Assembly (NCBI RefSeq): GCF_963378085.1 | Contig: NZ_OY726395.1 | Span: 744,001 to 808,000, forward strand | Length of the DNA: 64,000 nt | Source of the DNA: Mycolicibacterium sp. MU0050 | Lineage (GTDB): Bacteria; Actinomycetota; Actinomycetes; Mycobacteriales; Mycobacteriaceae | Direction: 5' to 3' | Part shown: piece after piece, positions 19,270 to 34,579 of the stretch | How the letters are laid out: the number at the start of each line of letters is the position of its first letter | Position numbering within the stretch: position 1 is the stretch's first letter | Notes under the pieces: model-generated | What the model saw: only the letters and a program-made list of their open reading frames with translations | The model's database searches: none | Told to the model about the DNA's origin: nothing | Translations under genes and position numbers: made by a program

Positions 19270-20646
19270 TCAGGCTTTCCACACTGTCTTGAGATTGCAG
19301 AATTCTCGGATGCCCTCGGCGGCCAGTTCGCGCCCGTAGCCGGAATCCTTGATCCCTCCGAACGGCAGCTCCGGGTATGAGACCGTCATGCCGTTGAGGA
19401 AAACTGCGCCCGCCTCCAGATTTCGAACGAACCAGTCATGCTCGGCATCATCGTTGCTCCACACCGACGAGCTCAACCCGAACGCCGTTTGATTCGCGAT
19501 GCGCACGGCCTCGTCCCGGTTGCCGACGCGATACACCGACGCGACGGGGCCGAAAGCCTCCTCCCGCACAATGCGCATGTCGTCGGTCAGTCCGGCCAGT
19601 ACCGTGGGCGGGTAATACCACCCCGGGCGGTCAGGCGCGGAACCCCCGGCGAGTAACTGGGCGCCCTTGGCCACCGCGTCGTCCACCAAGCCGCTGACCG
19701 CAGCGCGGCCGGACTCGGTGCTCAGTGGGCCGACGTCGGTGGACTCGTTCATCGGATCACCGACCACGAGGTCGTTCATCTTGTCGGTGAACAGGTCCAC
19801 GAATTCCTCATACACCTCCGTGTGGATGATGAATCGCTTGCCGGCTATGCAGGATTGGCCATTGTTGGACACTCGGGCCGCGACCGCGACCGTCGACGCG
19901 GCATCCAGATCGGCGCTGGGCATCACGATGAATGGGTCCGAGCCTCCGAGTTCCAGCACCGCCTTCTTGAGCTGACGCCCGGCGGTCGCCCCCACGGCCC
20001 GCCCCGCCGACTCGGATCCGGTCAGGGTGACGGCCTTGACGCGGCGATCCTCGATCACTGCGGCGACTTCGCTCGACTCGACGAGCAGCGAACGCAGTGA
20101 GCCGTCCGGATAGCCGCCCCTGGTGAAGAGTTCATCGAGATAGAGCGCGGACTGCGGAACATTCGGCGCGTGCTTCAGCAACCCGGCGTTGCCAGCCATC
20201 AACGCCGGTGCGGCGAACCGGATCACCTGCCACAGTGGGTAATTCCAGGGCATCACTGCAAGCACTACGCCCAACGGTTGCCACACCGTGCCGGCCGCAG
20301 ATGCGGATACGGTCGACGGGTCCGCGAGGTGCTGCGGGGACAAAAAGGCTTCGGCGTTGTCGGCATAGAAGCGGATGCTCTTGACGCATTTGACGACTTC
20401 GGCGCGCGCCTGCCGGATCGGCTTACCCATTTCGAGGGTGATCATCGCGGCCGTCGAATCGATTTCTGAGTCAAGCAGGTCGGCCGTCGCGTGCATCCAA
20501 GCGGCGCGTTGGCTGAAGGAGGTTTCACCCAAGGTCCGGGCAGCTTCGCATGCCTCTGCGATTCGGCGCTGCACCTCGGCGTCGTCATGTGGTGCAAACT
20601 TCTCGACGACCTCGCCTGTCGCCGGATTGGTGGTAGCGATTGTCAT
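19270..20646 (-). CDS. Succinate-semialdehyde-type aldehyde dehydrogenase
   Basis: A 458-residue NAD(P)+-dependent aldehyde dehydrogenase: MPWNYPLWQV, LTGSESAGRAVG, catalytic Glu in LELGGSDPF (E232) and nucleophile Cys in NNGQSCIAGKR (C266). Length and the short N-terminus match GabD1-type mycobacterial enzymes that oxidise succinate semialdehyde, though other short semialdehydes are possible. The ATG at 20646 has AAGAAGAGAG upstream. It is divergent from the E1/E2 operon across the TTGGATCCAA operator pair, so it is likely co-regulated. Confidence 0.8.
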   Translation of the reverse strand: MTIATTNPATGEVVEKFAPHDDAEVQRRIAEACEAARTLGETSFSQRAAWMHATADLLDSEIDSTAAMITLEMGKPIRQARAEVVKCVKSIRFYADNAEAFLSPQHLADPSTVSASAAGTVWQPLGVVLAVMPWNYPLWQVIRFAAPALMAGNAGLLKHAPNVPQSALYLDELFTRGGYPDGSLRSLLVESSEVAAVIEDRRVKAVTLTGSESAGRAVGATAGRQLKKAVLELGGSDPFIVMPSADLDAASTVAVAARVSNNGQSCIAGKRFIIHTEVYEEFVDLFTDKMNDLVVGDPMNESTDVGPLSTESGRAAVSGLVDDAVAKGAQLLAGGSAPDRPGWYYPPTVLAGLTDDMRIVREEAFGPVASVYRVGNRDEAVRIANQTAFGLSSSVWSNDDAEHDWFVRNLEAGAVFLNGMTVSYPELPFGGIKDSGYGRELAAEGIREFCNLKTVWKA

Positions 20647-20802
20647 GAATTCTCTCTTCTTGGTGCGGTGTGGCTGAACATCGGGCCGGCGGGTTCTCGG
20701 TCCCGGCCGCGCCGGGTGCGCCGGGGTCAACCCTCATGGCTCCCGAATGCGGTGCGGTTCGGCCGACCCGTCCGGGTCCAACTGACGCGTGGATCACCGG
20801 AA

Positions 20803-20812
20803 TTGGATCCAA
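20803..20812. promoter_or_regulatory. Operator 1 of island regulon
   Basis: A perfect palindrome TTGGATCCAA in the divergent promoter region. Its centre is 63 bp from operator 2, about six helical turns, so a regulator could bind both on one face. Confidence 0.7.
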
Positions 20813-20865
20813 ACACTGAGCACCATACGGGATTGCGAGGAACAATCTCAGTCCTAGTAGCCAAA

Positions 20866-20875
20866 TTGGATCCAA
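20866..20875. promoter_or_regulatory. Operator 2 of island regulon
   Basis: TTGGATCCAA extended to a 12-bp palindrome, ATTGGATCCAAT (20865-20876), 67 bp upstream of the E1 start codon. The likely ligand is the GntR protein encoded at 31930-32625. Confidence 0.7.
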
Positions 20876-20942
20876 TAAAGGTAGTGTGTGACCCGAGCCA
20901 CGCGCCGACTGTGGGGTCGGCCGACCGCTGGAGAAGAGGTTT

Positions 20943-23129
20943 ATGTCCGCCGAATGCCGTTTGGAAACGGGATCTGAATGGATCGAACTTTCCACCACCC
21001 AAGATGACTGGAAGGCCGCGGACCCGGCGCTTCTGGGGACCATGCTCGCCGAGTTGCACCTGATCCGGGCCTTCGAGGAAACCGTGCTTGAACTCGCGGC
21101 CGAAGGTTTGGTCCACGGACCCGCTCACTCCAGCATCGGCCAGGAGGGTGGCGCGGTGGGATCCATCGTCGGCCTGCGGCCGACCGATGGGGTGAACGGC
21201 TCGCACCGCGGGCACCACCAATTTCTTGCGAAGGTGCTGACCTATGTGTCCGGAGGGGTGATCGACCCCGCCGCGCCCGTCACGCCAGAGGTGTCGGACG
21301 TGCTGCAACGGACACTCGCCGAGATCCTCGGATTGGCTCAAGGCTATTGCCGCGGCCGCGGCGGTTCGATGCACCTGCAGTGGTTCGAGGCGGGGGCGTT
21401 GGGGACCAACGCCATCGTCGGTGGCGGCGTACCCATGGCGGCCGGCAATGCCTGGGCCCAAAAGCACAGTTCCACAACCGATGTCACGATCAGCTACTTC
21501 GGAGATGGCGCCAGTCAGATCGGCTCGGTGCTCGAATCCATGAACTTGGCAGCCGCTTGGAAACTGCCGGTGTGCTTCTTCATCGAGAACAACCTCTACG
21601 CGGTGGCCACGCACGTCGAAGAGATCACCGCAGATTCGCGCCTGTCGGTGCGGGGGCAGGGATTCAGTATTCCCGGCTGGCGGGTCGACGGGATGGACCC
21701 GCTGGCTGTGTACTTGGCCACCGAACGGGCTGCCGAACGGATGCGCAACGGCGATGGTCCGGCGATCGTCGAGGCCGAGGTGTATCGGTTTTTCCACCAG
21801 AATGGGCCGTACCCGGGTAGTGCCTTCGGTTACCGCGACAAGGCCGAGGAGGCGCAGTGGCGCGCTCGGGATCCGCTGGATATGACTGCTGCGCAGATGA
21901 TCAACCTAGGTCTGATCGACGAGGCTGGTGTCACAGATCTGCGTCGTCGGGCGCAGGAAGCGATGACCGCCGCGGCTTCCGCCCTGCTGGAGGTCGACCC
22001 GGAATCGGCCGGCAAGCGCCGTATCCGGCCCGAACTGTGGCCCGATCCGAGCTTCGTCGACGTGGGTGTCCGTGGTGATGCCAGCGAGCTTCAATCCTTG
22101 CCCGTACTGGATCCGACCGAGCACGAAGGGGACTGGCGCAAACTGAAGTTCGTCGACGCCGTCGCCGGGGTGATGGATCGTCGGATGGCGACCGACGAAC
22201 GCATCGTGGTCTTTGGTGAGGACGTCCACCGACTGAACGGCGGCACCAACGGTGCCACCAAGGGGCTGGCGAAGTACGGCGACACCCGTCTGGTCGGTAC
22301 ACCGATCAGTGAGAATGCGTTCATCGGACTCGGTGGCGGCCTGGCACTGGACGGTCGGTTCCGACCGGTCGTCGAGTTCATGTATCCCGACTTCATGTGG
22401 GTGGCGGCAGACCAGGTGTTCAACCAGGTCGGCAAGGCGAGGCACATGTTCGGTGGAGATAACTCGGTCCCCCTGGTGCTGCGAACCAAAGTCGCAATGG
22501 GGACCGGGTACGGCTCCCAGCACCTGATGGATCCGGCTGGAATCTTCGTCACAAGCCCAGGGTGGCGGGTGGTGGCACCCTCTACCGCTGCGGATTACGT
22601 CGGCTTGATGAATGCGGCCCTGGCGCTGGACGATCCGGTCCTGGTGATCGAGCATGTCGACCTCTACGGCATCGCCGACCGCGTCCCCGAAGGGGATCTC
22701 GACTACATCATTCCGCCGCGTCGGGCAGCCGTCCGCCGCGTCGGCACGGAGGTCACCGTCATCAGCTACCTCTCGATGGTCGCCCGGTGCCTCGAGGCAA
22801 TCGAACAGACACACGTTGACGGAGAGGTGATCGACTTGCGTTGGCTCGACCGCGCGTCGATCGACTGGGAAACCATCGAGGCAAGTGTCCGCAAGACGAA
22901 CGCGGTGTTGATCGTCGAGCAGGGCGCCCGCGGAACTTCTTACGGCGGATGGTTGGCCGACGAGGTCCAGCGCAGGCTTTTCGACTGGCTGGATCAACCT
23001 GTGGAGCGGGTGTCGGGTGGGGAAGCATCACCGAGCATTTCCCGGGTGTTGGAACGTGCGGCCTTCGCCGGCACGAGTGAGATCGTCGATGGTCTTGAGA
23101 AGATCTCGCGTGGGATGGGCAAGCGCTGA
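20943..23129 (+). CDS. 2-oxoacid (acetoin-type) dehydrogenase E1, alpha and beta fused
   Basis: A 728-residue thiamin-diphosphate enzyme. Residues 1-~370 are the E1-alpha part, with the ThDP-magnesium motif GDGASQIG through ENN (about 186-215) and GGSMHL. Residues ~395-728 are the E1-beta part (VVFGEDV, GTPISENAFIGLG, DPVLVIEHVDL). The two are separate proteins in most such complexes. Together with E2 downstream it would decarboxylate a 2-oxoacid or cleave a diketone such as acetoin, giving an acyl-CoA. No E3 gene is nearby, so a chromosomal lipoamide dehydrogenase must be borrowed. Confidence 0.85.
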   Translation: MSAECRLETGSEWIELSTTQDDWKAADPALLGTMLAELHLIRAFEETVLELAAEGLVHGPAHSSIGQEGGAVGSIVGLRPTDGVNGSHRGHHQFLAKVLTYVSGGVIDPAAPVTPEVSDVLQRTLAEILGLAQGYCRGRGGSMHLQWFEAGALGTNAIVGGGVPMAAGNAWAQKHSSTTDVTISYFGDGASQIGSVLESMNLAAAWKLPVCFFIENNLYAVATHVEEITADSRLSVRGQGFSIPGWRVDGMDPLAVYLATERAAERMRNGDGPAIVEAEVYRFFHQNGPYPGSAFGYRDKAEEAQWRARDPLDMTAAQMINLGLIDEAGVTDLRRRAQEAMTAAASALLEVDPESAGKRRIRPELWPDPSFVDVGVRGDASELQSLPVLDPTEHEGDWRKLKFVDAVAGVMDRRMATDERIVVFGEDVHRLNGGTNGATKGLAKYGDTRLVGTPISENAFIGLGGGLALDGRFRPVVEFMYPDFMWVAADQVFNQVGKARHMFGGDNSVPLVLRTKVAMGTGYGSQHLMDPAGIFVTSPGWRVVAPSTAADYVGLMNAALALDDPVLVIEHVDLYGIADRVPEGDLDYIIPPRRAAVRRVGTEVTVISYLSMVARCLEAIEQTHVDGEVIDLRWLDRASIDWETIEASVRKTNAVLIVEQGARGTSYGGWLADEVQRRLFDWLDQPVERVSGGEASPSISRVLERAAFAGTSEIVDGLEKISRGMGKR

Positions 23130-24376
23130 TGGCCACCGTGGTGCGAATGCCAGAAGTGTTGGCCGACACCAGTGAAGCCACCATCCAATCTTGGCTGGTG
23201 GCGGTCGGCGACGAAATCGCCATCGGTGATCCGATCGCAGAGATCGAAACGGACAAGGCGGTTGTGGAGTACGCCGCCGAGGTCGCGGGGATTCTGTCCC
23301 AACTGTTGGTTGAGCCTGGGACGTCGACCGCCGTGGGCAATCCGATCGCGGTAGTGACGAGTCCGGGTGAGGACGATGCCGATATCGATCCGGGGTTGGG
23401 GGCCGCCGCGACTCCGCTGGAGCCTGCTTCGTCGACCGCCACTGCGAAGGGTGAAGAAGAGGCGACGGGTGAAGAGGCGAAGCCAGAACCTGTCGAGGCT
23501 CCCGGTCGACGGATGTTTGCAACACCGTTGGTGCGAAAGATCGCCCGGGAAAAGGGAATTGACCTAACCGAGGTCACGGGTACCGGGCCCGGCGGGCGAA
23601 TCGTACGTCGCGACGTCGACCGGTTGCCCGAAAGGCGGCCAGCGGTCGTCCCGCCACCAGCACTGCGTCCGGACGAGCCAGCGGTTTCTGCGCCCGAGGG
23701 CGTCGTTGACGTGCCGTTGTCGGGGATGCGTAAGGCCATCGCGCGGCGCCTCACCGAGAGCAAGACCACGGTGCCCCATTTCTACGTCACCGCCGAGTGC
23801 CGAATCGATGCGCTCCTCGAGCTCAGGGCGACTGTCAACGGATCCTCCACAGTGAAAATTTCGGTGAACGACTTTGTCCTCAAGGCGGTTGCCGGCGCTC
23901 TGCTCGAGGTCCCGGAGGCCAATGCGATTTGGAACGGCGATTCGATCCGGCGGTTCCAAAGTGCCGACGTCGCGGTGGCTGTCGCGGTGGACGGCGGCCT
24001 GGTGACACCGGTACTGCGCGGGGTGGAGCGGCTTCCGGTCTCAATGATTTCGGCCCAGGTCGCGGATTTCGCGGAACGCGCCCGGGGCGGTCGCATCCAG
24101 CAGGGTGAACTCGAAGGCGGGAGCTTCTCGGTTTCCAACCTCGGCATGTACGGGGTGACGGAGTTCTCGGCGATCCTCAATCCACCGCATTCGGGGATCC
24201 TCGCGGTCGGCGCTGCAACTCAGCGACCGGTTGTGGTCGACGGCGAGTTGACGGTCGGGTCGATGATGACCGTGACGCTGTCGGCCGACCATCGCGTCAT
24301 CGACGGGGCGGTAGCCGCGCAATGGATGGCGGCCTTTGTCCGAAGAATCGAGAACCCGATGACGATTCTGATATGA
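23129..24376 (+). CDS. Dihydrolipoamide acyltransferase E2
   Basis: A 415-residue E2 with domains in order: one lipoyl domain (ETDKA, Lys about residue 43), an acidic/Ala linker, a peripheral-subunit-binding domain (ATPLVRKIAREKGIDL, about 130-165) and the acyltransferase core ending with the catalytic SADHRVIDG (His about 387). It moves the acyl group made by E1 to coenzyme A. The start overlaps the E1 stop by one base (TGATG). It has one lipoyl domain, whereas the housekeeping mycobacterial E2 has two, which fits a dedicated catabolic complex. Confidence 0.9.
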   Translation: MATVVRMPEVLADTSEATIQSWLVAVGDEIAIGDPIAEIETDKAVVEYAAEVAGILSQLLVEPGTSTAVGNPIAVVTSPGEDDADIDPGLGAAATPLEPASSTATAKGEEEATGEEAKPEPVEAPGRRMFATPLVRKIAREKGIDLTEVTGTGPGGRIVRRDVDRLPERRPAVVPPPALRPDEPAVSAPEGVVDVPLSGMRKAIARRLTESKTTVPHFYVTAECRIDALLELRATVNGSSTVKISVNDFVLKAVAGALLEVPEANAIWNGDSIRRFQSADVAVAVAVDGGLVTPVLRGVERLPVSMISAQVADFAERARGGRIQQGELEGGSFSVSNLGMYGVTEFSAILNPPHSGILAVGAATQRPVVVDGELTVGSMMTVTLSADHRVIDGAVAAQWMAAFVRRIENPMTILI

Positions 24377-24573
24377 ACGCCCGCGAGTTGGCCGCGCGGG
24401 TCGCGGCCCGATCAAGGTTCCGTCTCGGCCGGCGTGGAGCTACCCGCGGACGGTCCCGTTGGGCAGCGATGTGGTGCCTGTGCGATTCCGACCTCGATGA
24501 CCCGCGCTGGAGCCAGGATGCCGGCGCAACAACTTTGTCAGTTTCTTTCATGAACATGACCTGGGAGCGGTGA
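24373..24573 (+). CDS. Small basic ORF between E2 and the ABC importer
   Basis: A 66-residue frame that starts in an ATGA overlap with the E2 stop and ends in a TGATG overlap with the next gene. The product is Arg-rich at first (AARVAARSRFRLGRRG), then has WCLCDSD and a hydrophilic tail. I do not recognise it. Perfect joints at both ends argue for translation, perhaps mainly as a coupler between the complex genes and the transporter genes. It may also be the worn remnant of a larger gene. Confidence 0.45.
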   Translation: MNARELAARVAARSRFRLGRRGATRGRSRWAAMWCLCDSDLDDPRWSQDAGATTLSVSFMNMTWER

Positions 24574-25688
24574 TGACTCGAAACCCCCTCGCGCGCTTGA
24601 TCGGAGCAGCGGTCCTGATGACGGCGTCGATCGGATGCTCTTCGGGCTTGCACGACGTCGCTACGGCGGGTGTCGACCAAGCCATCACCGACATCTCCGC
24701 CTACGAGGAGGCAGCCAGGGAGGCCATGAGACCGGTTGCGGCCTGGCCCGGCCCTGTCGGTGGTCCGCCGGCTCAACCGGGAGTCAAGATCATGTGGATC
24801 GCGTGCGGGTTCGCCGCCGAGGGTTGTAAAGGGCCCGCGGAGGCCGCCGCGGATGCTGCTGACGCACTCGGGTGGGAGTTGCGTGTCGTCGACGGTCAAC
24901 TCGATCCTCGTATCTACAACCGGGCGGTCAGCGAGGCCGTCGACCAGGGCTACGACGCGGTGGTCCTCAATGCGATATCGGTGGATGCGGTGGCTGGTGC
25001 CGTGCAACGTGCCAGGGCCGCGGGGGTCGTGGTGGGTAGTTGGGACAGCGGTAACAATCCGAGTCCGAGTGGAGTCAGCTTCGAGGTAGATCAACCAATC
25101 GCCCAACAGGGCCACAACATGGTCAACTACATGGTCTGGAAGTCCGGTGGGAACACCAAGGCATACGTGACCGAAGCGCCCGAATTCAATGTGGTCCGGG
25201 GATGGATCCAGGGCGCCCGTGAGGCGCTAGAGACTTGTGACACTTGCGAAATCGTTCGCGAGGACAAGTTCACCGCGACGGAGGCCGCGACCCGTGTCCC
25301 GACACTGATGGTATCCGCCCTGCGGGAGAACCCGCAGATCAATACGGTGATCGGCGCTTACGACGCAGCCCTGCTCAGTGCCTTACCGTCCATTCGGGGA
25401 GCAGGATTCCATCGCGTGCGGGTGGGTGGGTTCAACGGCATCGCCCCGTGGCTCCAACTGATCCGTGACGGCCAGGCCAACGTCACGTCTGCTGTGCCGA
25501 TGAAGTGGGGTGCCTGGGCAGCCTTCGACAACGTGAACCGACTCTTGGCCGGCGAGGAGATTCCACTCCAGAACCTGCCCACCCGTCTGATCGCCACCGA
25601 GAACATTGCCGAGATTCCGCAGCAAGGGCAGTGGGAAGGCGACCTCGACTATGCGGCGGAGTACCGGCGGATCTGGAGCGCCTCGTGA
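24573..25688 (+). CDS. ABC-importer substrate-binding lipoprotein, sugar-type
   Basis: A 371-residue lipoprotein: lipobox TASIGC with Cys at residue 22, then a periplasmic-binding-protein type I fold (KIMWIACGF, YDAVVLNAISVDAVAGAVQRARAAGVVVGSWD, TVIGAYDAALLSAL). The class normally binds sugars, polyols or related small molecules outside the membrane for the adjacent ATPase and permease. The ATG at 24573 has GGAG 6 bases upstream. The stop overlaps the ATPase GTG (GTGA). Presence within a degradative operon suggests it imports the pathway substrate. Confidence 0.8.
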   Translation: MTRNPLARLIGAAVLMTASIGCSSGLHDVATAGVDQAITDISAYEEAAREAMRPVAAWPGPVGGPPAQPGVKIMWIACGFAAEGCKGPAEAAADAADALGWELRVVDGQLDPRIYNRAVSEAVDQGYDAVVLNAISVDAVAGAVQRARAAGVVVGSWDSGNNPSPSGVSFEVDQPIAQQGHNMVNYMVWKSGGNTKAYVTEAPEFNVVRGWIQGAREALETCDTCEIVREDKFTATEAATRVPTLMVSALRENPQINTVIGAYDAALLSALPSIRGAGFHRVRVGGFNGIAPWLQLIRDGQANVTSAVPMKWGAWAAFDNVNRLLAGEEIPLQNLPTRLIATENIAEIPQQGQWEGDLDYAAEYRRIWSAS

Positions 25689-27187
25689 CCGCGACCGAAG
25701 TCATCGTCGGCTCCGCGCTGTCGGCCGAATCGGTGAGCAAGCGATTCGGCGAGAACGTGGCACTTGACGACGTATCCCTGGAGATCCCAGCAGGAACGGT
25801 CCATGCGCTGGTCGGCATGAACGGTTCGGGCAAGTCGACATTGGTGAAGATCCTGGCGGGCTTCTATCAGCGCGACGCAGGGCACATCGCCGTCCGCGGG
25901 GTCGCGGAAGACTTCTGCGACAAGATCGCGTTCGTCCACCAGGACCTCGCCCTGGTGGAGTCCCTGACGGTGTTGGAGAACCTCAGCCTTGGGCACCGCA
26001 TCCCGATGCGCTGGGGGCGTATCGACCGAGATCGCGAGCGAGACGCGGTCATCGAGGCACTGAGACCATTTCAGCTCGAGCAGACGATCGACGTTGCCGT
26101 TGACCGGCTGACGAAGGCAGAGAAGACGATCATCGCGATTGCTCGTGCACTCCGTGCCGATGCCGGCTGTTCGCTGCTGGTGCTGGACGAGCCGACGTCC
26201 ACGCTGCCGGCGCGGGAGACACAACGTTTGCTCGACGTCATCGTTCAATGCGCCCAGTCGGGATTGGGCGTCCTGTTCATCTCGCACAGGTTCGGCGAAG
26301 TGATGAAAGTGAGCGATTCAGTGACCGTGCTACGGAACGGGAGTGTGGTGTGCAGTTCGCCGACCTCTGAGCTCTCGATCGATCGGATCGTCAAGGAAAT
26401 GGGTGGCACCGGCGGACAGTTGGTGGACGTCGGCCGAACTGGCCACGCCGAGACGCAGACTTTCCGCGGTGGTTCAGTTATGAGTGCCCGGAGGCTGAGC
26501 GGGCAGACTCTCCGCGACATAGATCTGGATGTACATCCGGGCGAAATTGTCGGTGTGGCCGGGGTTCTGGGTAGCGGTGTCGAGGAACTGGGACGGTTAC
26601 TCAGTCGCAGGCAAGAGCCCTCCGCAGGGACCGTCAGGCTCGGCGATGCCGAGATCGCCCGACACTCCCGCCGGGTGGGTTTCGTGCCGGCCAACCGCGC
26701 AAGTCACGCCGTTCTCACCGGTCTCACCACCCGCGAGAATGCCACCGTATCCGATGCCAGGCGGCACCTCTCCCGAGGGAGAATCGACGTCCGCAGTGAA
26801 CGGGTACGGACACACGATCTGTTCGCCGCGATGGGGGTGCACCCCCTCGATACCGAGATCGACATGCTCGCTCTGTCCGGTGGCAATCAGCAGAAGGTGC
26901 TCATCAGCCGGTGGCTGGCCGTCGATCCCGATGTCTTGGTGGCAGACGAGCCAACGCAGGGCGTCGATGTGTACGCCAAGGGCGAGATCCTGGCCAAGTT
27001 GCGTCAGCATGCCGCTGCAGGTCTTGCCGTCGTGCTGATCAGCGGGGAACCGGAAGAGATAGCCGCTGCCTGTGACCGGATGTTGGTCATCAACCACGGA
27101 CGGATCCAAGCCGAGTTCCCGTCGCCCGTGGACGTTTCGTCGGTACTAGCGGAGATGCACAAGGGAGATGGTCATGGTCACAGCTGA
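25685..27187 (+). CDS. ABC-importer ATPase with two nucleotide-binding domains
   Basis: A 500-residue RbsA/XylG-type ATPase. Domain 1 has Walker A GMNGSGKST (44-52) and Walker B LLVLDEPTS, but its signature is a degenerate LTKAEKTIIAI. Domain 2 keeps the signature LSGGNQQKV (about 396) and VADEPTQGVD but has a degenerate Walker A (GVLGSGVEE). One consensus site can therefore be completed across the two halves, as is common in this carbohydrate-type family. It powers import by the permease encoded next, whose start overlaps its 3' end. Confidence 0.85.
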   Translation: MTATEVIVGSALSAESVSKRFGENVALDDVSLEIPAGTVHALVGMNGSGKSTLVKILAGFYQRDAGHIAVRGVAEDFCDKIAFVHQDLALVESLTVLENLSLGHRIPMRWGRIDRDRERDAVIEALRPFQLEQTIDVAVDRLTKAEKTIIAIARALRADAGCSLLVLDEPTSTLPARETQRLLDVIVQCAQSGLGVLFISHRFGEVMKVSDSVTVLRNGSVVCSSPTSELSIDRIVKEMGGTGGQLVDVGRTGHAETQTFRGGSVMSARRLSGQTLRDIDLDVHPGEIVGVAGVLGSGVEELGRLLSRRQEPSAGTVRLGDAEIARHSRRVGFVPANRASHAVLTGLTTRENATVSDARRHLSRGRIDVRSERVRTHDLFAAMGVHPLDTEIDMLALSGGNQQKVLISRWLAVDPDVLVADEPTQGVDVYAKGEILAKLRQHAAAGLAVVLISGEPEEIAAACDRMLVINHGRIQAEFPSPVDVSSVLAEMHKGDGHGHS

Positions 27188-28175
27188 CGTAACGACGCGA
27201 CAGCACATCCCGCCGCCCAGGGAATGGGGACGTCGGGTGGCGAGTTTCGCGGTGGTAGGGCTGATTGCCCTACTGGTGTTCGTGTTCAGCGCTTTACGGC
27301 CGGACACGTTCGCGACGGCCGCTAACGCCCAGACCATTCTGGTGGAAAGCGCCGTCCTGACCATCCTGAGCCTCGCGGTCATGGTCCCGCTGATCGTCAA
27401 CGAGTTCGATTTGTCTTTGGCGGCGGTGCTCGGGTTGGCTGCGATGTTGGCCGCCGGACTGCCCGCCAGACAGGGGTTCAGCGTTGGATTGACCTTGGTG
27501 ACGATCTTTGCCGTGGCGCTCGCGGTGGGAGCGGTGCACGCGTGGCTCATCGTCCGACTCAATCTGCCATCGTTCGTGGTAACTCTAGGTACCAATTCGG
27601 TTCTGGCGGGGCTGATTCTGTTGTACTCCGGCGGTGCGGTGGTCTATGAGGCCATTCCCGACGGCATCAGGATCATCGGTACTGCTTCCGTTGCTGGGAT
27701 CGGGATGCCGATCTTGCTGATGGCGGCGATCGCCGCGTTGCTGTGGTTCATGTTGACACAACGTCCTGTCGGCCGGTTTTTCTACGCCGTTGGCGCCAAC
27801 GAGACCGCCGCGAGGTTGGCCGGCGTACCGACGGCCCGAATCCGAGTGTTGGCGCTGGTCGGTGCGCCGATGCTGGCCGCCGTTGCGGGGCTGGTTCTGA
27901 CGGCTCGCGTCGGATCGGCGAATCCAACGTCTTACAGCGCGTTCTTCCTGCCCGCTTTCGCCGCCGCCTTCCTGAGCTTGGCAGCGTTCCAGATCGGCAA
28001 ATTCAACCCGTTGGGGGTGGTCGCGGCGGTGTACTTGCTTGCGGTTGGCGTCGCAGGGCTATCGCAACTGGGAGTGCCTTCCTGGGTTGATCCGGTGTTC
28101 AACGGCGCTGCGCTAGTCGTCGCCATCGCCCTGTCGCGGTTGACCGCTGACCGTCGAACGGCCGGCGCCGTGTAG
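27174..28175 (+). CDS. ABC-importer permease, RbsC/XylH type
   Basis: A 333-residue integral membrane protein with about nine hydrophobic segments and the family loop GANETAARLAGVPTARIRVLAL (about 205-226), which contacts the ATPase. It forms a homodimeric channel for the sugar-class importer. The ATG at 27174 is chosen because AAGGGA lies 7 bases upstream; the ATG at 27168 is too close. The gene overlaps the ATPase gene by 14 bases. Confidence 0.85.
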   Translation: MVTADVTTRQHIPPPREWGRRVASFAVVGLIALLVFVFSALRPDTFATAANAQTILVESAVLTILSLAVMVPLIVNEFDLSLAAVLGLAAMLAAGLPARQGFSVGLTLVTIFAVALAVGAVHAWLIVRLNLPSFVVTLGTNSVLAGLILLYSGGAVVYEAIPDGIRIIGTASVAGIGMPILLMAAIAALLWFMLTQRPVGRFFYAVGANETAARLAGVPTARIRVLALVGAPMLAAVAGLVLTARVGSANPTSYSAFFLPAFAAAFLSLAAFQIGKFNPLGVVAAVYLLAVGVAGLSQLGVPSWVDPVFNGAALVVAIALSRLTADRRTAGAV

Positions 28176-28228
28176 TCGCCGATGCCCAATCCCGAGCACG
28201 AGTCGTTCCGATAGAGACAGGAATTGAA

Positions 28229-28717
28229 ATGCAACCGTCATTGCCGTCGTCCAAAGTCGATCAGTTGGGTTTTCTGGTGCCCGACCTGAAGATCGGTGTG
28301 CAACATTGGACAGCCGCACTCAACGTTACCGACTGGCGCGTCTACACCTACTCCCCGGACATGGCGGGAACACGGTTCTCCTACCGAGGGCAGGCGGGAG
28401 AATTCACCATGCGGCTCGCCCTTGCCAATACGGTTCCGCAGATCGAACTCATTCAACCGATTGCCGGACCCAGCCTGTATCACGACTGGATTGCCCAGCG
28501 TGGCTACGGCTTTCATCATGTCGGATTCTTCGTACCCTCGATCACCGACACTGTCGATGAGTATCGCGCATCCGGGCTCGAGCCGGCCCAGACCGGCAGC
28601 GGTTACGGCGTCGACGGTGACGGCGGGTTCGCCTATTACGAAATGGAGGACCAGCTCGGAACAGTTGTCGAATTCATCGAGGTACCTGCGAATCGCCGGC
28701 CCAGCGAAACGCTGTGA
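28229..28717 (+). CDS. VOC-family protein of the catabolic operon
   Basis: A 162-residue protein with two VOC halves: VDQLGFLVPDLKIGVQHWTAAL and GYGFHHVGFFVPSITDTVDEYRASG, closing with QLGTVVEFIEV. The His in the first half is replaced (QLGFLV) but HHVGF and the final Glu are typical metal ligands, so metal-dependent isomerase, epimerase or hydrolase chemistry is plausible. The ribosome site is AGGA 8 bases upstream. Its position after the importer suggests it acts on an early pathway intermediate. Confidence 0.7.
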   Translation: MQPSLPSSKVDQLGFLVPDLKIGVQHWTAALNVTDWRVYTYSPDMAGTRFSYRGQAGEFTMRLALANTVPQIELIQPIAGPSLYHDWIAQRGYGFHHVGFFVPSITDTVDEYRASGLEPAQTGSGYGVDGDGGFAYYEMEDQLGTVVEFIEVPANRRPSETL

Positions 28718-28794
28718 ACCAGCTACCTGACCGCGGCGCCCAGCCGGGCGCGGTCGGTCTTCTATCCCCGACCCATTCACAACAAGGAGTATTC

Positions 28795-29283
28795 ATGGAC
28801 ACGACACTCGAGACGCTCAGCCGCCGGGTCGCCCGCATCGAGGCCGCCGACGAAATCCGGCGGTTGAAGCTTCGTTACGCAGCGGCGTGTGACGACAACT
28901 ACCCGCCGGACGTCATCGCACCGATGTTCACCGAGGACGCAATCTGGGATGGCGGCGAGCGGTGGGGACGTCATAACGGGCGCGAGGCAATCCGAGCCTT
29001 CTTCGCCGGTGCCAGCGACACCATCACCTTCGCGCTGCACCTGATGATCGGCGGAGACATCGAGGTCGACGACAACGCGACGTCCGCCAAGGGCTTTTGG
29101 CAGCTGTATGAGCCGGTCGCCGTCGTCGATGGCGATCAGAAGTTCTCGGCGGTGATGGCGGGCATTTATCACGATGACTACGTGCTCACCGACGAGGGAT
29201 GGAAATTCTCCGTCGTCCGGCTCGATTGGGCGATGCAGGCGCGGCTCGACCGCGGTTGGCACAACGGCCGCTTCCACCTCTGA
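28795..29283 (+). CDS. SnoaL/NTF2-like protein
   Basis: A 162-residue cone-fold protein of the SnoaL type: a helical start EAADEIRRLKLRYAAACDD, MFTEDAIWDGGERWGRHNGREAIRAFF, then beta strands up to FSVVRLDW. Members include dehydratases, isomerases and dioxygenase small subunits. The His/Asp pattern (IWDGG, HLMIGGDI) would allow a dehydratase or hydratase role. AAGGAG lies 5 bases before the ATG at 28795. It is part of the same operon as the amidase downstream. Confidence 0.75.
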   Translation: MDTTLETLSRRVARIEAADEIRRLKLRYAAACDDNYPPDVIAPMFTEDAIWDGGERWGRHNGREAIRAFFAGASDTITFALHLMIGGDIEVDDNATSAKGFWQLYEPVAVVDGDQKFSAVMAGIYHDDYVLTDEGWKFSVVRLDWAMQARLDRGWHNGRFHL

Positions 29284-29305
29284 TCGCAGAACCAAGGAGA
29301 GCATG

Positions 29306-30850
29306 ATGACCAGTCCGTGGACCAATGCGGTCGAACGCGTCGCCGCTGCCCTCGGGATTGCCGACGGCGCTTATTACGACGAGGTTCGTGAGGTCGTCCA
29401 CGAGCGCCTCGAAGCCGCCGCGCCGATCGCGGCAGAACTGCGCGGGGCCGCGAATCACGCGCCGTGGCAACGGCCTGAGACGCAGAACGATCCCCTCAAC
29501 GCCATCGTGCGGTGGTGCGACATAGCGCCGACCGGGGAGGGGCCGCTGTCCGGCAGAACTATCTCTGTGAAGGACTCGATCTTCGTAGCCGGGGTCCCGG
29601 CCACCTGCGGCTACAGCGGTCTCGAGGACTTCGTACCTACTGCCCACGCCACGATCGTCGATCGGATCCTGCGTGCGGGCGGCCGGATCGTCGCCACGAC
29701 GAACATGGACTGCTTCGGCTTCGCGGCCTCCGGTGCGACGAGTTCGTATGGCCCGACGCAGAACCCGAACTCGATCGACCATCTGGCCGGGGGTTCATCC
29801 AATGGGGCGGCGGCGGCGTTGTCGTATCCGGGCATCGATATCAGCGTGGGGTGCGACCAGGGCGGATCGATCCGCATCCCCGCTGCGTGGTGTGGCGTGC
29901 TGGGGCTCAAACCGACCCACGGATGGATCCCGTACACGGGCATCGCGGGAATCGACCAGATCATCGACCACACCGGCCCCATGGCACGCTCGGTGAGCGA
30001 CATCGCCGACATGATGGACGTGCTGGTGGGTCGCGACGGTATCGACCCTCGCCAGCCCGAGGTTGTCCCGGAGGCGAGGTTCGGATACCGCGTGCGGAAT
30101 CCGCGCAATAACCTGGAAGGGATCCGGATCGGGGTCCTCGACGAAGGCATGGACCTGACCCGAGAACACGGTGCAACTGACGTGATCGCCGCGGTGGAGG
30201 CCACCTGCCGGGAGCTGAAGGCGATGGGGGCGCAGATCCAGCGGGTCTCGGTGCCGGAGCATCTCACGATCGGCGTTGCATCGTTTGTCTGCAATCTAGA
30301 GGGGATGGCATCGTTGTTGCGCTCCGGCGGTCATGGCTACGGCCACCTCGGCCGATACGATGTGGAGTTCGCGACGCGGTTGAGTGCGGCACTACAGGAC
30401 CGAGCGGACGAGTTGTCGCCCCAGGTCAAAGTCGCGTGGTTGGCGGGCACAACGATGGCCGACACCTACGGCGGCGCTTTGTACGCGGCTGCACGGAATG
30501 CTCTGGCGGACCAGATCGCGGGGTACGCGAAGGTCTTCGCAGACGTCGATATGCTCATCATGCCGACCACACCGTTCGGGCCCTTGCGGACAGCCGATGC
30601 CTCGGGTGCCGACAAGTCGCTCGCCGTTGGCTGGAGCATGTTGGGGAATACGGCGCCGTTCAACGCAACCGGTATGCCGGCGCTGAGCATGCCCGTCGGC
30701 CGATCGAACGGGCTCCCGGTCGGTGCGATGTTGGTTGGGCCGAAGGGGGCCGATGCCGAGCTGCTCGACGTCGCGCGCCTCTACGAAACCACTGTGGGCT
30801 GGGACTTGGCGCCCGAACTCGCGATGGCCGAGCCGGATTGGGAGCGCTGA
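29306..30850 (+). CDS. Amidase (amidase-signature family)
   Basis: A 514-residue serine amidase with the Ser-cisSer-Lys triad motifs: the Lys in SVKDSIFVAG (about 89), the GGSSNGAA segment (about 162-169, cis-Ser) and DQGGSIRIPA (nucleophile Ser about 188). It hydrolyses a carboxamide to acid plus ammonia or amine. The ATG at 29306 is best placed relative to GGAG; the ATG at 29303 is also possible. Beside an LLM monooxygenase and a semialdehyde dehydrogenase it suggests that the pathway substrate contains nitrogen. Confidence 0.9.
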   Translation: MTSPWTNAVERVAAALGIADGAYYDEVREVVHERLEAAAPIAAELRGAANHAPWQRPETQNDPLNAIVRWCDIAPTGEGPLSGRTISVKDSIFVAGVPATCGYSGLEDFVPTAHATIVDRILRAGGRIVATTNMDCFGFAASGATSSYGPTQNPNSIDHLAGGSSNGAAAALSYPGIDISVGCDQGGSIRIPAAWCGVLGLKPTHGWIPYTGIAGIDQIIDHTGPMARSVSDIADMMDVLVGRDGIDPRQPEVVPEARFGYRVRNPRNNLEGIRIGVLDEGMDLTREHGATDVIAAVEATCRELKAMGAQIQRVSVPEHLTIGVASFVCNLEGMASLLRSGGHGYGHLGRYDVEFATRLSAALQDRADELSPQVKVAWLAGTTMADTYGGALYAAARNALADQIAGYAKVFADVDMLIMPTTPFGPLRTADASGADKSLAVGWSMLGNTAPFNATGMPALSMPVGRSNGLPVGAMLVGPKGADAELLDVARLYETTVGWDLAPELAMAEPDWER

Positions 30851-30853
30851 CAC

Positions 30854-31870
30854 ATGCAATTCGGTCTGAACCTTCCCACTCACGGTGTGATGAGTCGAGA
30901 CGGGGACGGTAATTGTCGACTGACCAATATCGACCCGAGCGAGATGCGTCCGGTTGAGCGGAGCATCCGCGCGGAGGAACTGGGCTTCCACTCGGTCTGG
31001 CTGAGCGATCACATCGTCACCGAAGCCTTCACCGAGGGAGTTCATCCCGCGAACTCCTCGGGTAAACGGGCCTATCCCGAACGGCCCGTCATGTTGGATG
31101 TCGCCACCACTTTCGGTGCCATCGCCAGCCGGACATCGACGATCAGGTTCTGTCCTACCGTCTACATTGCTCCCTACCGCCACCCGCTCATCACCGCGCA
31201 CGAATGGGCCACGCTCGACGTCCTGTCCGGCGGGCGGGCGATGATGGCCGTGGGTGTTGGTTGGGAGATCGGCGAGTTCGAGGCACTGGGTGCTGATTTC
31301 GAGCGGCGCGGATCCGTGCTCTACGAATGCCTGCAGATATATCGTCAGGCTTGGGAGAACTCGGATATCGCGTTCGACGGAAAGCATTTCCAGATCCACG
31401 GGGTATCAATGGATTTGAAACCCGTCCAGTCGCGGATTCCGATCTGGTATGGGGGGATGTCCGAGATCGCAGCAAAACGGGCAGCCCGGTTGTGTCAGGG
31501 CTTCTATCCGATGTTCCTCGATTCGCGTACGCATCCCGCGGATCTGGATTTCCTCCGGACGGCAATCGTGCGAGAAGCGGTGGCAATTGGGCGTGATCTC
31601 AGCGACTTCACCATGGCTGCTTACTGTCAGGTAGGGCTGCGCTCCGGGTCGGGGACGGGGCCGTCGTCGGCGCGTCCATTCCTGACCGGGACTGCAGAAC
31701 AAATTCTCGATGATCTGAATGTGATGGGGTCCTACGGGTACGAACACGTCACGGTCCAATTCGACTGTCCCAGTGGCACCGCCAGCGAGCATGTCGAGCA
31801 GACCGAGATGTTTGCTGCTCAGGTACTTCCTCACGCGGGACAGATTGCTTCCGTGGCGATCGCTGGGTGA
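30854..31870 (+). CDS. LLM-class monooxygenase of the catabolic operon
   Basis: A 338-residue luciferase-like TIM barrel: MQFGLNLPTHGVM, EELGFHSVWLSDHIVTE, RTSTIRFCPTVYIAPYRHPL, GRAMMAVGVGWEIGEFEALGADF and SRIPIWYGGMSEIAAKRAAR. It uses FMNH2 or F420; no flavin reductase gene is next to it. It starts 3 bases after the amidase stop, the tightest link in the operon. By analogy with pyridine-type pathways, in which an LLM enzyme opens a ring before amide hydrolysis, it may carry out the first oxidative attack; that is inference. Confidence 0.8.
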   Translation: MQFGLNLPTHGVMSRDGDGNCRLTNIDPSEMRPVERSIRAEELGFHSVWLSDHIVTEAFTEGVHPANSSGKRAYPERPVMLDVATTFGAIASRTSTIRFCPTVYIAPYRHPLITAHEWATLDVLSGGRAMMAVGVGWEIGEFEALGADFERRGSVLYECLQIYRQAWENSDIAFDGKHFQIHGVSMDLKPVQSRIPIWYGGMSEIAAKRAARLCQGFYPMFLDSRTHPADLDFLRTAIVREAVAIGRDLSDFTMAAYCQVGLRSGSGTGPSSARPFLTGTAEQILDDLNVMGSYGYEHVTVQFDCPSGTASEHVEQTEMFAAQVLPHAGQIASVAIAG

Positions 31871-31929
31871 CGCGGAGGCAATCGGCAAGCTGATGTCGGC
31901 GACCTCCGCAGTCGTGTTCATCTCGTTCA

Positions 31930-32625
31930 CTACTGCGGAGGTTGATCGAAAAGTTCTGGGTGCTTGGCCAATTCGACGCGAGTGCGCCTGATGTGCCCCA
32001 CCAGACACCGTTCGGCCTCGACAATGTCCCGGTTGATGATGGCGTCGATCAGTAAGCGGTGCTCAGCGTCGATGATCCACTTGCGATCCCTTCCGGCCAG
32101 CCGGGCGAACGCGCGCCGGTAGTGCTGTGTGGTGTTCCAGTATCGGGTGACCATCCCAATCAGTTCGGCGGTGCGGCACCCGCTGTAGGTCAGCAGGTGC
32201 AGTTCCCGATCGAGGACCAGGAATCGGTCGACATCGTCGTTGCGCTCTATCTCCGCTTGGATTTCGGTCAGTCGTTGGTGGTCCTCAGAGGTGAGTCGCG
32301 GAACGCTCTCCTCGAGCGCGAGCGGTTCGATCCGTTCTCGGACACGGTAGATGAAGTCGCATTCGTCGAGGTCCAACTTCGAAACCCACGCACCGCTGTT
32401 GGCCTTGAGTTCGAGGAGCCCCTCGGATTCCAGAATGCGCAGTGCTTCGCGGACCGGCAGCCGGCTCGCATTCATCCGCTGGGCAAGCTCCTCCTGTCGG
32501 ATCCGCTGCCCAGGAAGGACTCGACCGGCGAGAATGTCCTCTCGCAGACTGTCCGAGATACGTTGACTGGCAACCGACGACCCCCTGTTCTCAGGTGATC
32601 CCGGTTTGCCGTCGGTCGCAGTCAT
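31930..32625 (-). CDS. GntR-family transcription regulator, FCD type
   Basis: A 231-residue regulator: winged HTH SLREDILAGRVLPGQRIRQEELAQRMNASRLPVREALRILESEGLL, then an FCD ligand domain with metal-ligand-like Asp and His residues (DRELHLLTY, AEHRLLIDAI). GGAGGAG lies 6 bases before the ATG at 32625, the strongest ribosome site of the island. It follows the hydrolase by 31 bases on the same strand. The two 63-bp-spaced operator pairs are its probable targets, including its own operon. Confidence 0.85.
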   Translation of the reverse strand: MTATDGKPGSPENRGSSVASQRISDSLREDILAGRVLPGQRIRQEELAQRMNASRLPVREALRILESEGLLELKANSGAWVSKLDLDECDFIYRVRERIEPLALEESVPRLTSEDHQRLTEIQAEIERNDDVDRFLVLDRELHLLTYSGCRTAELIGMVTRYWNTTQHYRRAFARLAGRDRKWIIDAEHRLLIDAIINRDIVEAERCLVGHIRRTRVELAKHPELFDQPPQ

Positions 32626-32656
32626 CGCTCTCCTCCCAAGTGTTGTCCGTGTGCGA

Positions 32657-33862
32657 TTACAGCTTGTCAACGAAGGAACGGACCGCGTCGTTGAATTCCA
32701 CTGGATTCTCGATCATGGGGTAGTGCCCTGTCCCTTCGAGTACCGTCACGGAGCTGTCCTTGATCCGGGAGGCAGTAGCGTCGACCATCTCTTGGTTCAC
32801 CAGCCAATCGCCGTCCCCCCGAATCAACAAGACCGGGCTGGTGATGTTCGCCATCTCCGCACGCCTGTCGAATCCGGCGTAACCCGTCAAGTCCGCCGCA
32901 ATGTACTCGGGCGCCACCCTTCTTAGCTGCCAGACTACTTCCCGTGCGCGATCGGGCGGCGTGCGTTTGCCGGTCATGGACCGCGACCACGCCTCCAGGA
33001 TCTGCGGACCGTTGAGGAGAAGCATCTCGAGCAGGAAGGGGCTGACGGTAGGGGTGTAGTCAGCGCCCTCGCAGGACACCACACCGCGGTAGTAGTCGGG
33101 GCGTCGCGATGCCAACTCGAGAACCATGTTCCCGCCCATCGAGCACCCGACGATTATCGGCCGCTCCAGGCCCAGCGCGGCCATGAACGACTCGTTGAAA
33201 TCGGCATGCTGGGTCAGACTCCGGAACGGCCCCCCGCTCGGTTCGCCGGTCTTGCCGTGTCCGGGCGCATCCACGGAGATGACTCGGAAATGGTCGGACA
33301 ACCCCCGGACGACGTGCCGATACATCAGGGTGTCCTGACCTGCGGCGTGGATACACACGATCGGAGCGCCGCTGCCGGCTTCCTCGTAGTACGTCTCGAT
33401 ACCGTTCACATCGACGTAGTGACCAGTGACCGCACGACTGTAGGCGGGAGGAGCCGGAGAAAAGGCGGACTGCGGCTGAGCGTCTGGCCGGGCCGCACGT
33501 GACAGCGCGTGCAGGAACAGCCACAACGCCTTGACGTTCCGGCCGGCTGCGACGGCATTGCCGGCGACGGTCAAGTGTCCCAAAGCCGGCGACGTTGCTT
33601 CGAAGTAGTCGGCCCGGCCGTCAAGGATTCGTTCCCATTCGTGCTCGGGTGCTTCCAGGGAGATATCCGCTCCGGTCGGCAGCGGTCCCTGCGCCGCGCC
33701 GACCGCCTTACCGTCACGTGTATCGACAGCGAAACTGGCGCCTTCGCAACACAACTCGATACGCACCGAGAAGTACTTCGCGGCCGCAGCCCACTCGGTG
33801 TCGTTGTTGAGCTCGTTGAGGAATGCCGTCCAGAAATCGGGACGGGTGAATTCGTTGGGCAT
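32657..33862 (-). CDS. SCP2-like domain fused to alpha/beta hydrolase
   Basis: A 401-residue two-domain protein. Residues 1-~130 resemble a sterol-carrier SCP2-like domain (IELCCEGASFAV, ADISLEAPEHEWERILDGRADYFEA, LTVAGNAVAAGRNVKALWLFLHAL). Residues ~145-401 are an alpha/beta hydrolase with an IHAAGQD oxyanion loop, nucleophile GCSMGG (S241), Asp in GDGDWLV and GTGHYP (H380). It could cleave a C-C or ester bond in a hydrophobic ring-opened intermediate held by the SCP2 part. GGAAGGA precedes the ATG at 33862; the operator pair at 34.0 kb lies upstream. Confidence 0.8.
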   Translation of the reverse strand: MPNEFTRPDFWTAFLNELNNDTEWAAAAKYFSVRIELCCEGASFAVDTRDGKAVGAAQGPLPTGADISLEAPEHEWERILDGRADYFEATSPALGHLTVAGNAVAAGRNVKALWLFLHALSRAARPDAQPQSAFSPAPPAYSRAVTGHYVDVNGIETYYEEAGSGAPIVCIHAAGQDTLMYRHVVRGLSDHFRVISVDAPGHGKTGEPSGGPFRSLTQHADFNESFMAALGLERPIIVGCSMGGNMVLELASRRPDYYRGVVSCEGADYTPTVSPFLLEMLLLNGPQILEAWSRSMTGKRTPPDRAREVVWQLRRVAPEYIAADLTGYAGFDRRAEMANITSPVLLIRGDGDWLVNQEMVDATASRIKDSSVTVLEGTGHYPMIENPVEFNDAVRSFVDKL

Positions 33863-34001
33863 ATCGAGATGTCCTTCCGCGCGTCATCGGGAGTTGGCTC
33901 GGCAGCAGCCGTATGCGGGGGGCATTGCGACGCGAGGTCGGCAGCAGCAGAGGGTCTAACCTGTGAGTCACTGAGATGTGACGTATCGCACGAATAAGTT
34001 A

Positions 34002-34011
34002 TCGGATCCAA
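34002..34011. promoter_or_regulatory. Operator 3 of island regulon
   Basis: TCGGATCCAA (one change from TTGGATCCAA) within ATCGGATCCAATTGG, about 140 bp upstream of the hydrolase start. Centre 63 bp from operator 4. Confidence 0.6.
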
Positions 34012-34064
34012 TTGGCTGCGTCAAGGCGCCAGAAGCGCTGCAAATTGCCTCGGGTCGAGCATGG

Positions 34065-34074
34065 GTGGATCCAA
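34065..34074. promoter_or_regulatory. Operator 4 of island regulon
   Basis: GTGGATCCAA; on the minus strand it reads CCAAATTGGATCCA, identical over 14 bases to operator 2. Pair spacing equals that of operators 1 and 2. Confidence 0.65.
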
Positions 34075-34101
34075 TTTGGTGCCACGGCTCCGGTGGGCGC
34101 C

Positions 34102-34572
34102 CTATTCTTGTCGCGTCTCCATGCCGGGCGGCACGACTCGCAGTTTCGCCGCGATCCGGGTCAGCGCCGCCAAATCTGCCGCAGTCAACGGGTCCAGGAC
34201 CAGTTCGCGCACCGCGTGTAGATGGATTGGGGCAGCCTCGGTCACCAGGCCATAGCCGGTGTCGGTGAGGGAGGCGATCGTGTACCGGCCGTCGTCGGGA
34301 TCTCGCGACCGGGTCGCCCAGCCCCGGGTCTCGAATCTGCTGACCACATTGGACAGTCGGGACAGCGACCCGCTGGCAAGGAATGCCAAGTCGCTCATCC
34401 GGATCCGCCGGTTCGGAGCCTCGGAGATGTGGCTGAGGACCAGGTACTCGAAAAGGGTGAGGCCGACCGGACGCAGGGGTGCTTCGAGTTTGTTTGGAAG
34501 CAGCAGCATGAGCGCGACCAGTCCGGTCCACGCGTCCTTCTCCGGCGGTGTCAGCCAGCGGGTCTCCTCCAT
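34102..34572 (-). CDS. MarR-family transcription regulator
   Basis: A 156-residue winged-HTH regulator: LRPVGLTLFEYLVLSHISEAPNRRIRMSDLAFLASGSLSRLSNVVSRFETRGWATRSRDPDDGRYTIASLTDTG is the classic MarR core with the DPDDGR wing. The ATG at 34572 is preferred to the ATG at 34590, which lies inside the operator palindrome. It is divergent from a RidA-like gene across two ACTTCA-N4-TGAAGT palindromes, so it probably represses itself and ridA. The inducer is unknown. Confidence 0.85.
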   Translation of the reverse strand: MEETRWLTPPEKDAWTGLVALMLLLPNKLEAPLRPVGLTLFEYLVLSHISEAPNRRIRMSDLAFLASGSLSRLSNVVSRFETRGWATRSRDPDDGRYTIASLTDTGYGLVTEAAPIHLHAVRELVLDPLTAADLAALTRIAAKLRVVPPGMETRQE

Positions 34573-34579
34573 GGCAATG

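Follow-up and report, generated by a model that had tools for sequence, protein, structure and literature searches.

The stretch of DNA considered here (the window) comprises 64,000 nucleotides of Mycolicibacterium sp. MU0050 (contig NZ_OY726395.1, positions 744,001 to 808,000; the contig is called C1 below) and carries a catabolic gene island together with a regulator gene of the GntR/FCD type, gntR. Two pairs of short palindromes, all four centred on GGATCC, are found at this island. The first pair lies between two divergent genes, an aldehyde dehydrogenase of the succinate-semialdehyde type (19270..20646, minus strand; Pfam Aldedh, with NCBIfam PRK09406 above cut-off) and a fused E1 alpha/beta 2-oxoacid dehydrogenase (20943..23129, plus strand; Pfam E1_dh, Transket_pyr and Transketolase_C), the latter being its proposed target. 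The second pair lies about 140-210 bp upstream of the start of an alpha/beta hydrolase gene (32657..33862, minus strand; Pfam Abhydrolase_1), the first gene of a proposed operon with gntR (31930..32670, minus strand; Pfam GntR and FCD), whose product is the proposed owner of the operators. The open reading frames (ORFs) of gntR and the hydrolase, as listed, overlap by 14 bp.

In pair 1, the putative outer (auxiliary) operator, ATTGGATCCAAA at 20802..20813, and the putative inner (main) operator, ATTGGATCCAAT at 20865..20876, a perfect 12-bp palindrome, share the same 10-mer, TTGGATCCAA, at 20803-20812 and 20866-20875. In pair 2, the inner operator reads ATCGGATCCAAT on the plus strand (34001..34012) and the outer, auxiliary one GGTGGATCCAAT (34064..34075, plus strand), with the 10-bp palindromes TCGGATCCAA at 34002-34011 and GTGGATCCAA at 34065-34074. 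None of the four sites is assigned to a strand, and the label "inner" in pair 1 is given by analogy with the E1 promoters of relatives. Measured start-to-start or centre-to-centre, both pairs are spaced by exactly 63 bp. An initial annotation of the window had reported pairs 63 bp apart at these places, between the divergent genes and upstream of hydrolase-gntR, and was right on each count. It had also described the pairs as bracketing the island, which is inaccurate: pair 1 falls within the island, and the genome has two more pairs beyond the window.

Taken by itself, the loose motif is no commoner in the window than chance predicts, with 14 matches at up to two mismatches versus 12.7 expected. 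Single loose matches were consequently dropped as evidence, and the finding rests on the arrangement of the sites. In the whole genome (5.22 Mb), TTGGATCCAA is found with at most one mismatch at 23 places; the chance expectation for exact 63-bp pairs is then about 1e-4 (23 x 23 / 5.2 million) and two are observed. The genome-wide pair search that the initial annotation had called for yielded 33 GGATCC pairs at 52-82 bp. Only four of them, rather than many, have A/T-rich palindromic flanks, as judged by eye with the longer matches seen in part only, and their spacings are 63, 63, 63 and 62 bp. Counted from the window start (C1:744001), the other two pairs, at C1:706462/706525 (63 bp) and C1:701908/701970 (62 bp), are 38-42 kb away on the left side, so the regulon reaches past the window. 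Duplication of a DNA segment was rejected as the origin of the 63-bp pairs because their spacers are unlike, with 12-22 identical bases of 50-51 among the four pairs of the host genome. When 401 genomes of the family were searched for the exact pair pattern, 9 genomes matched; by eye, only two places in the host genome and one in another (G083) look like intergenic operators, the remaining matches resembling repeats or coding DNA. It must be noted that exact pair patterns miss weaker pairs.

Relatives of gntR are patchily distributed. They were detected in 5 of 401 genomes of the family at E 1e-30, in 21 of 394 genomes at class level at 1e-45, and in 21/197, 24/85, 5/8 and 5/17 genomes of four families at 1e-50 (some genomes recur); a phylum-wide search of 296 genomes at E 1e-50 returned the host genome only. 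Seventy loci with a gntR relative were carried into the analysis, and an E1 relative is present in the stretches examined for 64 of them. Eight loci without an E1 start in the stretch (L061, L084, L085, L087, L093, L104, L107 and L108) were set aside, which leaves 62 counted loci; L017 and L058, at about 30-34% GntR identity, were inspected and left uncounted.

A site pair with at most six summed mismatches precedes E1 in 56 of the 62 gntR-E1 loci. As controls, 12 stretches of about 10 kb with E1 and without a gntR relative were picked from 30 plasmid records carrying E1, outside those already taken for gntR; in two of them the E1 identity is only about 45%. No site was found near E1 in any of the 12. 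Markov-resampled sequences gave pairs in a mean of 0.42 of 62 loci (maximum 2, in 50 runs), and 60 scrambled palindromes in a mean of 0.57 of 62 (maximum 15 of 62; largest Rayleigh R, used for phase below, 0.52). Because all 12 E1 stretches without gntR are siteless while 56 of 62 loci with it are paired, the GGATCC-centred pairs are most likely, as was proposed initially, operators of the gntR product. A MarR-type gene (34102-34590) adjoins pair 2 and could in principle encode the protein that owns the sites. This is very improbable in our estimate: a MarR relative is present in 2 of the 70 loci (the window and L056), most loci being only about 3.6 kb long, pairs without any MarR relative occur in two 20-kb stretches (L055 and L016), and the E1 stretches lacking gntR are those that lack sites. 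One of the control stretches (L130) has a single weak match, 2.5 kb from E1.

Spacing was determined by a blind scan, in which the two best matches to ATTGGATCCAAT were taken from the 330 bases before E1 in each of the 62 loci, with no rule on their distance. The spacings in the 56 paired loci (52 bp in 12 loci, 62 in 5, 63 in 12, 64 in 9, 74 in 6, 75 in 5, and 67, 72, 73, 76, 83, 85 and 88 in one each) cluster at 52, 62-64, 72-76 and 83-85 bp, that is, at 5, 6, 7 and 8 helical turns. In 53 of the 56 loci the distance is at most 2 bp from a multiple of 10.5, versus 46% for uniform spacing. The Rayleigh R at 10.5 bp is 0.823 (n = 56) and the mean phase +0.2 bp, which indicates whole turns rather than half turns. 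Distances from either site to the start codon are far less phased (R 0.31 and 0.27, versus 0.85 between the sites, n = 54); the phase therefore belongs to the pair. Among loci fetched after the pattern had been noticed, a pair is present in 33 of 34 and in phase in 32 of these 33, compared with 21 of 23 in phase in the first set. The idea of six turns and one face of the helix, put forward for the window in the initial annotation, thus appears from this comparison to hold and to extend to five to eight turns.

The regularity might be put down to chance or to a single spacing handed down from a common ancestor, given that relatedness is widespread among the loci and that tight clades occur within the 52-bp group. 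We find this scarcely credible. On the GntR tree, the full set of 62 rows requires a minimum of 15 changes in turn number, and the 55 rows with firm labels (L055 and the six weak loci left out, L070 read as 75 bp) still require at least 10. The phase is also kept when one row is retained per 90, 80, 75 or 70% GntR identity (n = 43, 36, 32 and 22; R = 0.79, 0.79, 0.79 and 0.90), and in the later loci as well. For the 80% representatives the nominal p is about 1.5e-10, such p-values assuming independence.

Pairs are also found at promoters other than that of E1, at 62 (L080), 73 (L081) and 73 bp (L086), all before aldehyde dehydrogenase genes, and at 52 bp before a transporter gene (L083) and in L016. 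These counts are for at most four summed mismatches; pairs with five or six at other distances were not used. The L016 site has, besides its partner at 52 bp (three mismatches summed), partners at 38 and 43 bp (four summed), and the blind-scan value of 42 for this locus is a poor match, the better pair (52) lying farther upstream. Among the set-aside loci that were extended later, all of which stand outside the 62, pairs of 129 (L138), 128 (L139) and 64 bp (L140) were found in three, and none in two on short contigs (L141 and L142). Twelve turns amount to 126 bp at 10.5 bp per turn, and a linear fit to the five- to eight-turn spacings, itself indistinguishable from 10.5 through the origin, predicts 128.3. 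In L138 and L139, E1 is divergent from a hydrolase gene like that of the window. Weak extra palindromes 20-21 bp (two turns) from the main site occur in L138 (-205/-184), L139 (-242/-221) and the host-genome stretch L004 (11441/11461); such 21-bp tandem partners are too few to use as evidence.

The position of the sites relative to the promoter was assessed by counts over relatives, in 54 loci (the six loci with weak pairs, L055 and L082 were left out). T at -4 and G at -2 of the inner site are found in 42 of the 54 loci, 29 of them with TTG, and in 35 loci a yAnnnT box begins between +18 and +20, versus a background of 3.3% for the box. These elements place the inner site, in relatives, within the spacer that separates the -35 and -10 boxes of the E1 promoter. 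The outer site carries no promoter signature, with TTG in 2/54 loci in the sense and 0/54 in the antisense direction, and the box in 7/54 and 0/54. The inner site is nearer to the consensus than the outer one in 35 of 54 loci, equal in 8 and worse in 11. In the host genome, reading by eye places the inner site of pair 2 between a likely -35 box, TTGACG (34019..34024, minus strand), and a likely -10 box, TAACTT (33996..34001, minus strand), of the hydrolase-gntR promoter, with a 17-bp spacer (TTGACG-N17-TAACTT). The inner site of an FMN reductase promoter outside the window lies likewise in TTGACG-N17-TACGTT, the -10 box overlapping the edge of the site. For E1 itself, the likely -10 box, again by eye, is TAGTGT (20882..20887, plus strand). 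In some E1 genes (e.g., L073, L078, L109 and L113) the inner site is about 30 bases before the start codon. At loci of this kind, as judged by eye, the -10-like box would fall about 10 bases before the start, and the E1 mRNA may be leaderless.

The same counts bear on a different reading of the pairs, namely that the two sites serve separate, divergent promoters and that their distance is no more than a by-product of promoter packing. In many loci a divergent start codon and ribosome-binding site can be seen by eye close beyond the outer site, and operon-specific double sites are described for FadR-type divergons in the relevant passages of Suvorova et al. (PMC4494728). The divergent strand at the outer site, however, has neither TTG (0/54) nor the -10 box (0/54), packing alone would not yield steps of whole turns, and pair 2 of the window lies outside any divergent region. 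We consider this reading improbable.

The regulator has both domains above cut-off (PF00392, GntR, 62.8 bits; PF07729, FCD, 73.4 bits). Residues D154, H158, H204 and H226 are invariant in 41 aligned relatives, and we take them, from the family motif (D/N plus three H), to be the FCD metal ligands. The motif SR[L/I/V/M]P[V/I]R occurs in the recognition helix of all 62 regulators of the E1 loci. FCD regulators of the VanR group have six effector-domain helices and those of the FadR group seven. An AlphaFold2 model of the protein (mean pLDDT 89.7) has six long ones (101-125, 128-143, 147-161, 168-192, 194-212 and 216-235), as in the VanR group, with a four-residue turn at 238-241. The first Foldseek match by E-value is Atu1419 of the VanR group (6za3_B, TMq 0.57); TMq is higher for McbR (4p9f, 0.73) and AlkR/VanR (9isw, 0.68).

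Computation gives the sites, their association with gntR, spacings in whole-turn steps and, in relatives, a promoter position for the inner site; from these we infer that the pairs are two-part operators at which the GntR/FCD repressor of the island acts through cooperation or bridging over whole turns, with a probability of roughly 0.7. One dimer, bound to the inner site in the -35/-10 spacer, would keep RNA polymerase off, while a second would occupy the usually weaker auxiliary site upstream. The whole-turn distance, six turns or 63 bp here, would put both dimers on one face of the DNA, where they would cooperate through protein-protein contact or where a tetramer (a dimer of dimers) would bridge the sites over a tight loop. 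The outcome would be stronger repression of the E1-E2 operon and of the hydrolase-gntR operon, the latter amounting to autoregulation; the FMN-reductase/DUF1989 genes, which lie some 38 kb leftward of the window, would probably be repressed likewise. A small molecule of the pathway would act as inducer, releasing the protein and relieving repression. In comparative terms, both a main operator with its auxiliary and helical phase, as expected of a short-range repression loop, appear to be present. The interpretation given in the initial annotation seems largely right and is strengthened by the comparison, the spacing taking several whole-turn values and not 63 alone. Its proposal that the regulator controls itself and both catabolic promoters agrees with the pairs at E1 and upstream of hydrolase-gntR, whereas the aldehyde dehydrogenase, divergent from E1, is a candidate second target of pair 1 and only a possible one.

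Several observations weigh against this two-part operator model. When the offset is left free, the period that fits best is 11.2 (R 0.872) and not 10.5. For 33 hand-picked representatives, a free offset gives a period of 10.86 (95% confidence interval 10.4-11.3) and a fit through the origin one of 10.54 (10.49-10.59), so that 10.5 and 11 are indistinguishable and we claim neither as the in vivo helical repeat. The relatives do not count as independent cases, and the loci fetched later belong to the families of the first set or to neighbouring ones. L055, whose regulator is closest to that of the window (72% GntR identity), carries a near-perfect pair that is 67 bp apart and out of phase; its sites, at -322, -255 and -127 from E1, are 67 and 128 bp apart. 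L070 gives 88 bp in the blind scan, though a 75-bp partner exists, and L092 gives 76. Six of the 62 loci have weak pairs only, and L141 and L142, short contigs with 56% GntR identity, have no site. On a Salipiger plasmid, a 51%-identical regulator (L084) and E1 (L132) are separated by about 12 kb, and neither stretch yielded a site; the rule that sites follow gntR may not be valid for this branch. No pair was found in L085 and L087 either, where the regulator (43-46% identity) is not beside E1. The palindrome ATTGGATCCAAT also occurs in a vanillate-inducible construct of Caulobacter, in which we take it to be the VanR operator. According to the passages describing that construct, it is joined at one promoter by a near-identical copy (PMC6538847), and by our own count the two are 39 bp, or 3.7 turns, apart. 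The Caulobacter system serves vanillate genes, none of which is among the neighbour genes tested here.

Other adverse points concern the promoter. The -10 window (+18 to +20) was picked from part of the same set of loci (46 loci, with 16 near-duplicates or odd loci left out). A strict sigma-70 consensus scan of three regions found no promoter in any, and the E1 promoter of the window is poor at -35, with AGCCAA at the expected place. The poor -35 may speak for another reading, in which the outer site is phased to RNA polymerase and not to the inner dimer, and GntR bound there contacts the polymerase and activates or holds it, in the manner of class I activators, which act at whole-turn distances; since the inner site is fixed in the promoter, position cannot distinguish a phase relative to the promoter from one relative to the inner site. 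We think this unlikely, because GntR bound at the inner position would obstruct that very promoter, because the outer site is usually the weaker (inner better in 35/54), as expected of an auxiliary operator, and because the GntR-family regulators NanR and Atu1419 are, in the passages that deal with them, repressors.

Action of lambda repressor at integral turns was reportedly described by Hochschild and Ptashne in 1986; that protein is unrelated to the gntR product. The closest known parallel to the two-part operator model is Atu1419 of Agrobacterium fabrum (PDB 6z74 and 6za3), a tetrameric VanR-group FCD regulator whose palindromes are 109 and 190 bp apart and whose DNA loops were seen by electron microscopy, according to the passages concerned (PMC7797058). 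There, too, an FCD fold is combined with short palindromes, one of them between -10 and -35 and a second one distant, and the autorepression, tetramer and DNA loop reported for Atu1419 would have counterparts in the gntR model. The differences are a palindrome of ATGTATACAT, the 109- and 190-bp distances and a protein identity of about 25%. Whole-turn spacing is not mentioned in those passages of the Atu1419 paper. With Lac repressor, repression oscillates with operator spacing at six to eight turns (PMC5081198) and fitted helical repeats of its loops are 10.95-11.60 (PMC1762422), as given in the respective excerpts. The auxiliary operator and the spacing of six to eight turns resemble the gntR case, while the engineered spacing series, the LacI tetramer and the E. 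coli host do not. In FadR- and HutC-type divergons, GntR-family double sites at a roughly constant distance have been read as cooperative (Suvorova et al. 2015, PMC4494728); the terms "periodic", "same side" and "GGATCC" are absent from that text, and its relevant passages do not mention helical phasing. Whole-turn spacing within one motif is already known, as parts of the reports on MocR direct repeats, two or three turns apart (PMC5320631), and on CytR, where large spacers lean towards integral numbers of turns up to three (PMC3454398), make clear. No report of whole-turn GntR operator pairs was found in a literature search that most subscription journals lay outside.

In the literature that we met, helical phasing of repressor sites comes mainly from engineered series; here it is seen at dozens of natural promoters of one regulator family. 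Somewhat short of even odds, in our estimate, is the broader proposal that a lineage of FCD/GntR repressors uses tight loops at natural spacings of 5, 6, 7, 8 and perhaps 12 turns (128-129 bp in three closer relatives), the turn changes that keep phase, at least 10 of them, constituting an evolutionary spacing experiment. The whole-turn jumps between relatives make cooperation of a small repressor over 52-85 bp directly testable. They also suggest a rule for finding regulons, by which both members of a pair are required in phase; searches for single palindromic operators would miss the functional unit. If the model is true, and with more loci, the helical repeat of promoter DNA in living actinobacteria could be read from sequence alone.

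Among the remaining genes of the island, an E2 acyltransferase (23129..24376, plus strand; Pfam 2-oxoacid_dh, E3_binding and Biotin_lipoyl) adjoins E1 and is probably in the same operon. It is followed by genes for an ABC sugar-type transporter, glyoxalase-like and SnoaL-like proteins, an amidase and a luciferase-like oxidoreductase (30854-31870). One relative (L057) keeps the permease-glyoxalase-SnoaL-amidase-oxidoreductase block beside E1-E2, gntR and the aldehyde dehydrogenase. No Rieske oxygenase, and with it no linked vanillate demethylase, was found among 20 neighbour ORFs scanned (aldehyde dehydrogenase, E1/E2, ABC transporter, amidase, luciferase-like oxidoreductase, hydrolase and others). 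The gene set from 19270 to 33862, taken with the FMN reductase, leads us to guess at catabolism of an N-heterocycle through an acyloin or 2-oxoacid; a literature search on the identity of such an N-heterocycle pathway gave nothing usable.

A third, weaker match to the palindrome (three mismatches) lies in E1 coding DNA of the window at 20977-20988, 112 bp from the inner site, and was left out of the pair counts. A weaker GGATC match is likewise seen at +34 of E1 in eight relatives (L078, L109, L113, L114, L115, L117, L118 and L120), 63-64 bp past the inner site. This third match may perhaps reflect merely Trp-Ile codons (TGG ATC).

The two pairs to the left of the window differ in their surroundings. 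The 63-bp pair at 706 kb (five summed mismatches) is upstream, in reading direction, of the FMN reductase gene (G000:C1:705555-706187, L004 10555-11187, minus strand, 38 kb left of the window), which is followed by a DUF1989 gene (L004 9882-10481) under the same pair. Products of these genes are possible partners for the luciferase-like oxidoreductase. The 62-bp pair (C1:701908/701970, L004 6907-6980) is without a clear target gene and lies 0.7 kb from a Mutator-type transposase gene; it is possibly an orphan left by rearrangement.

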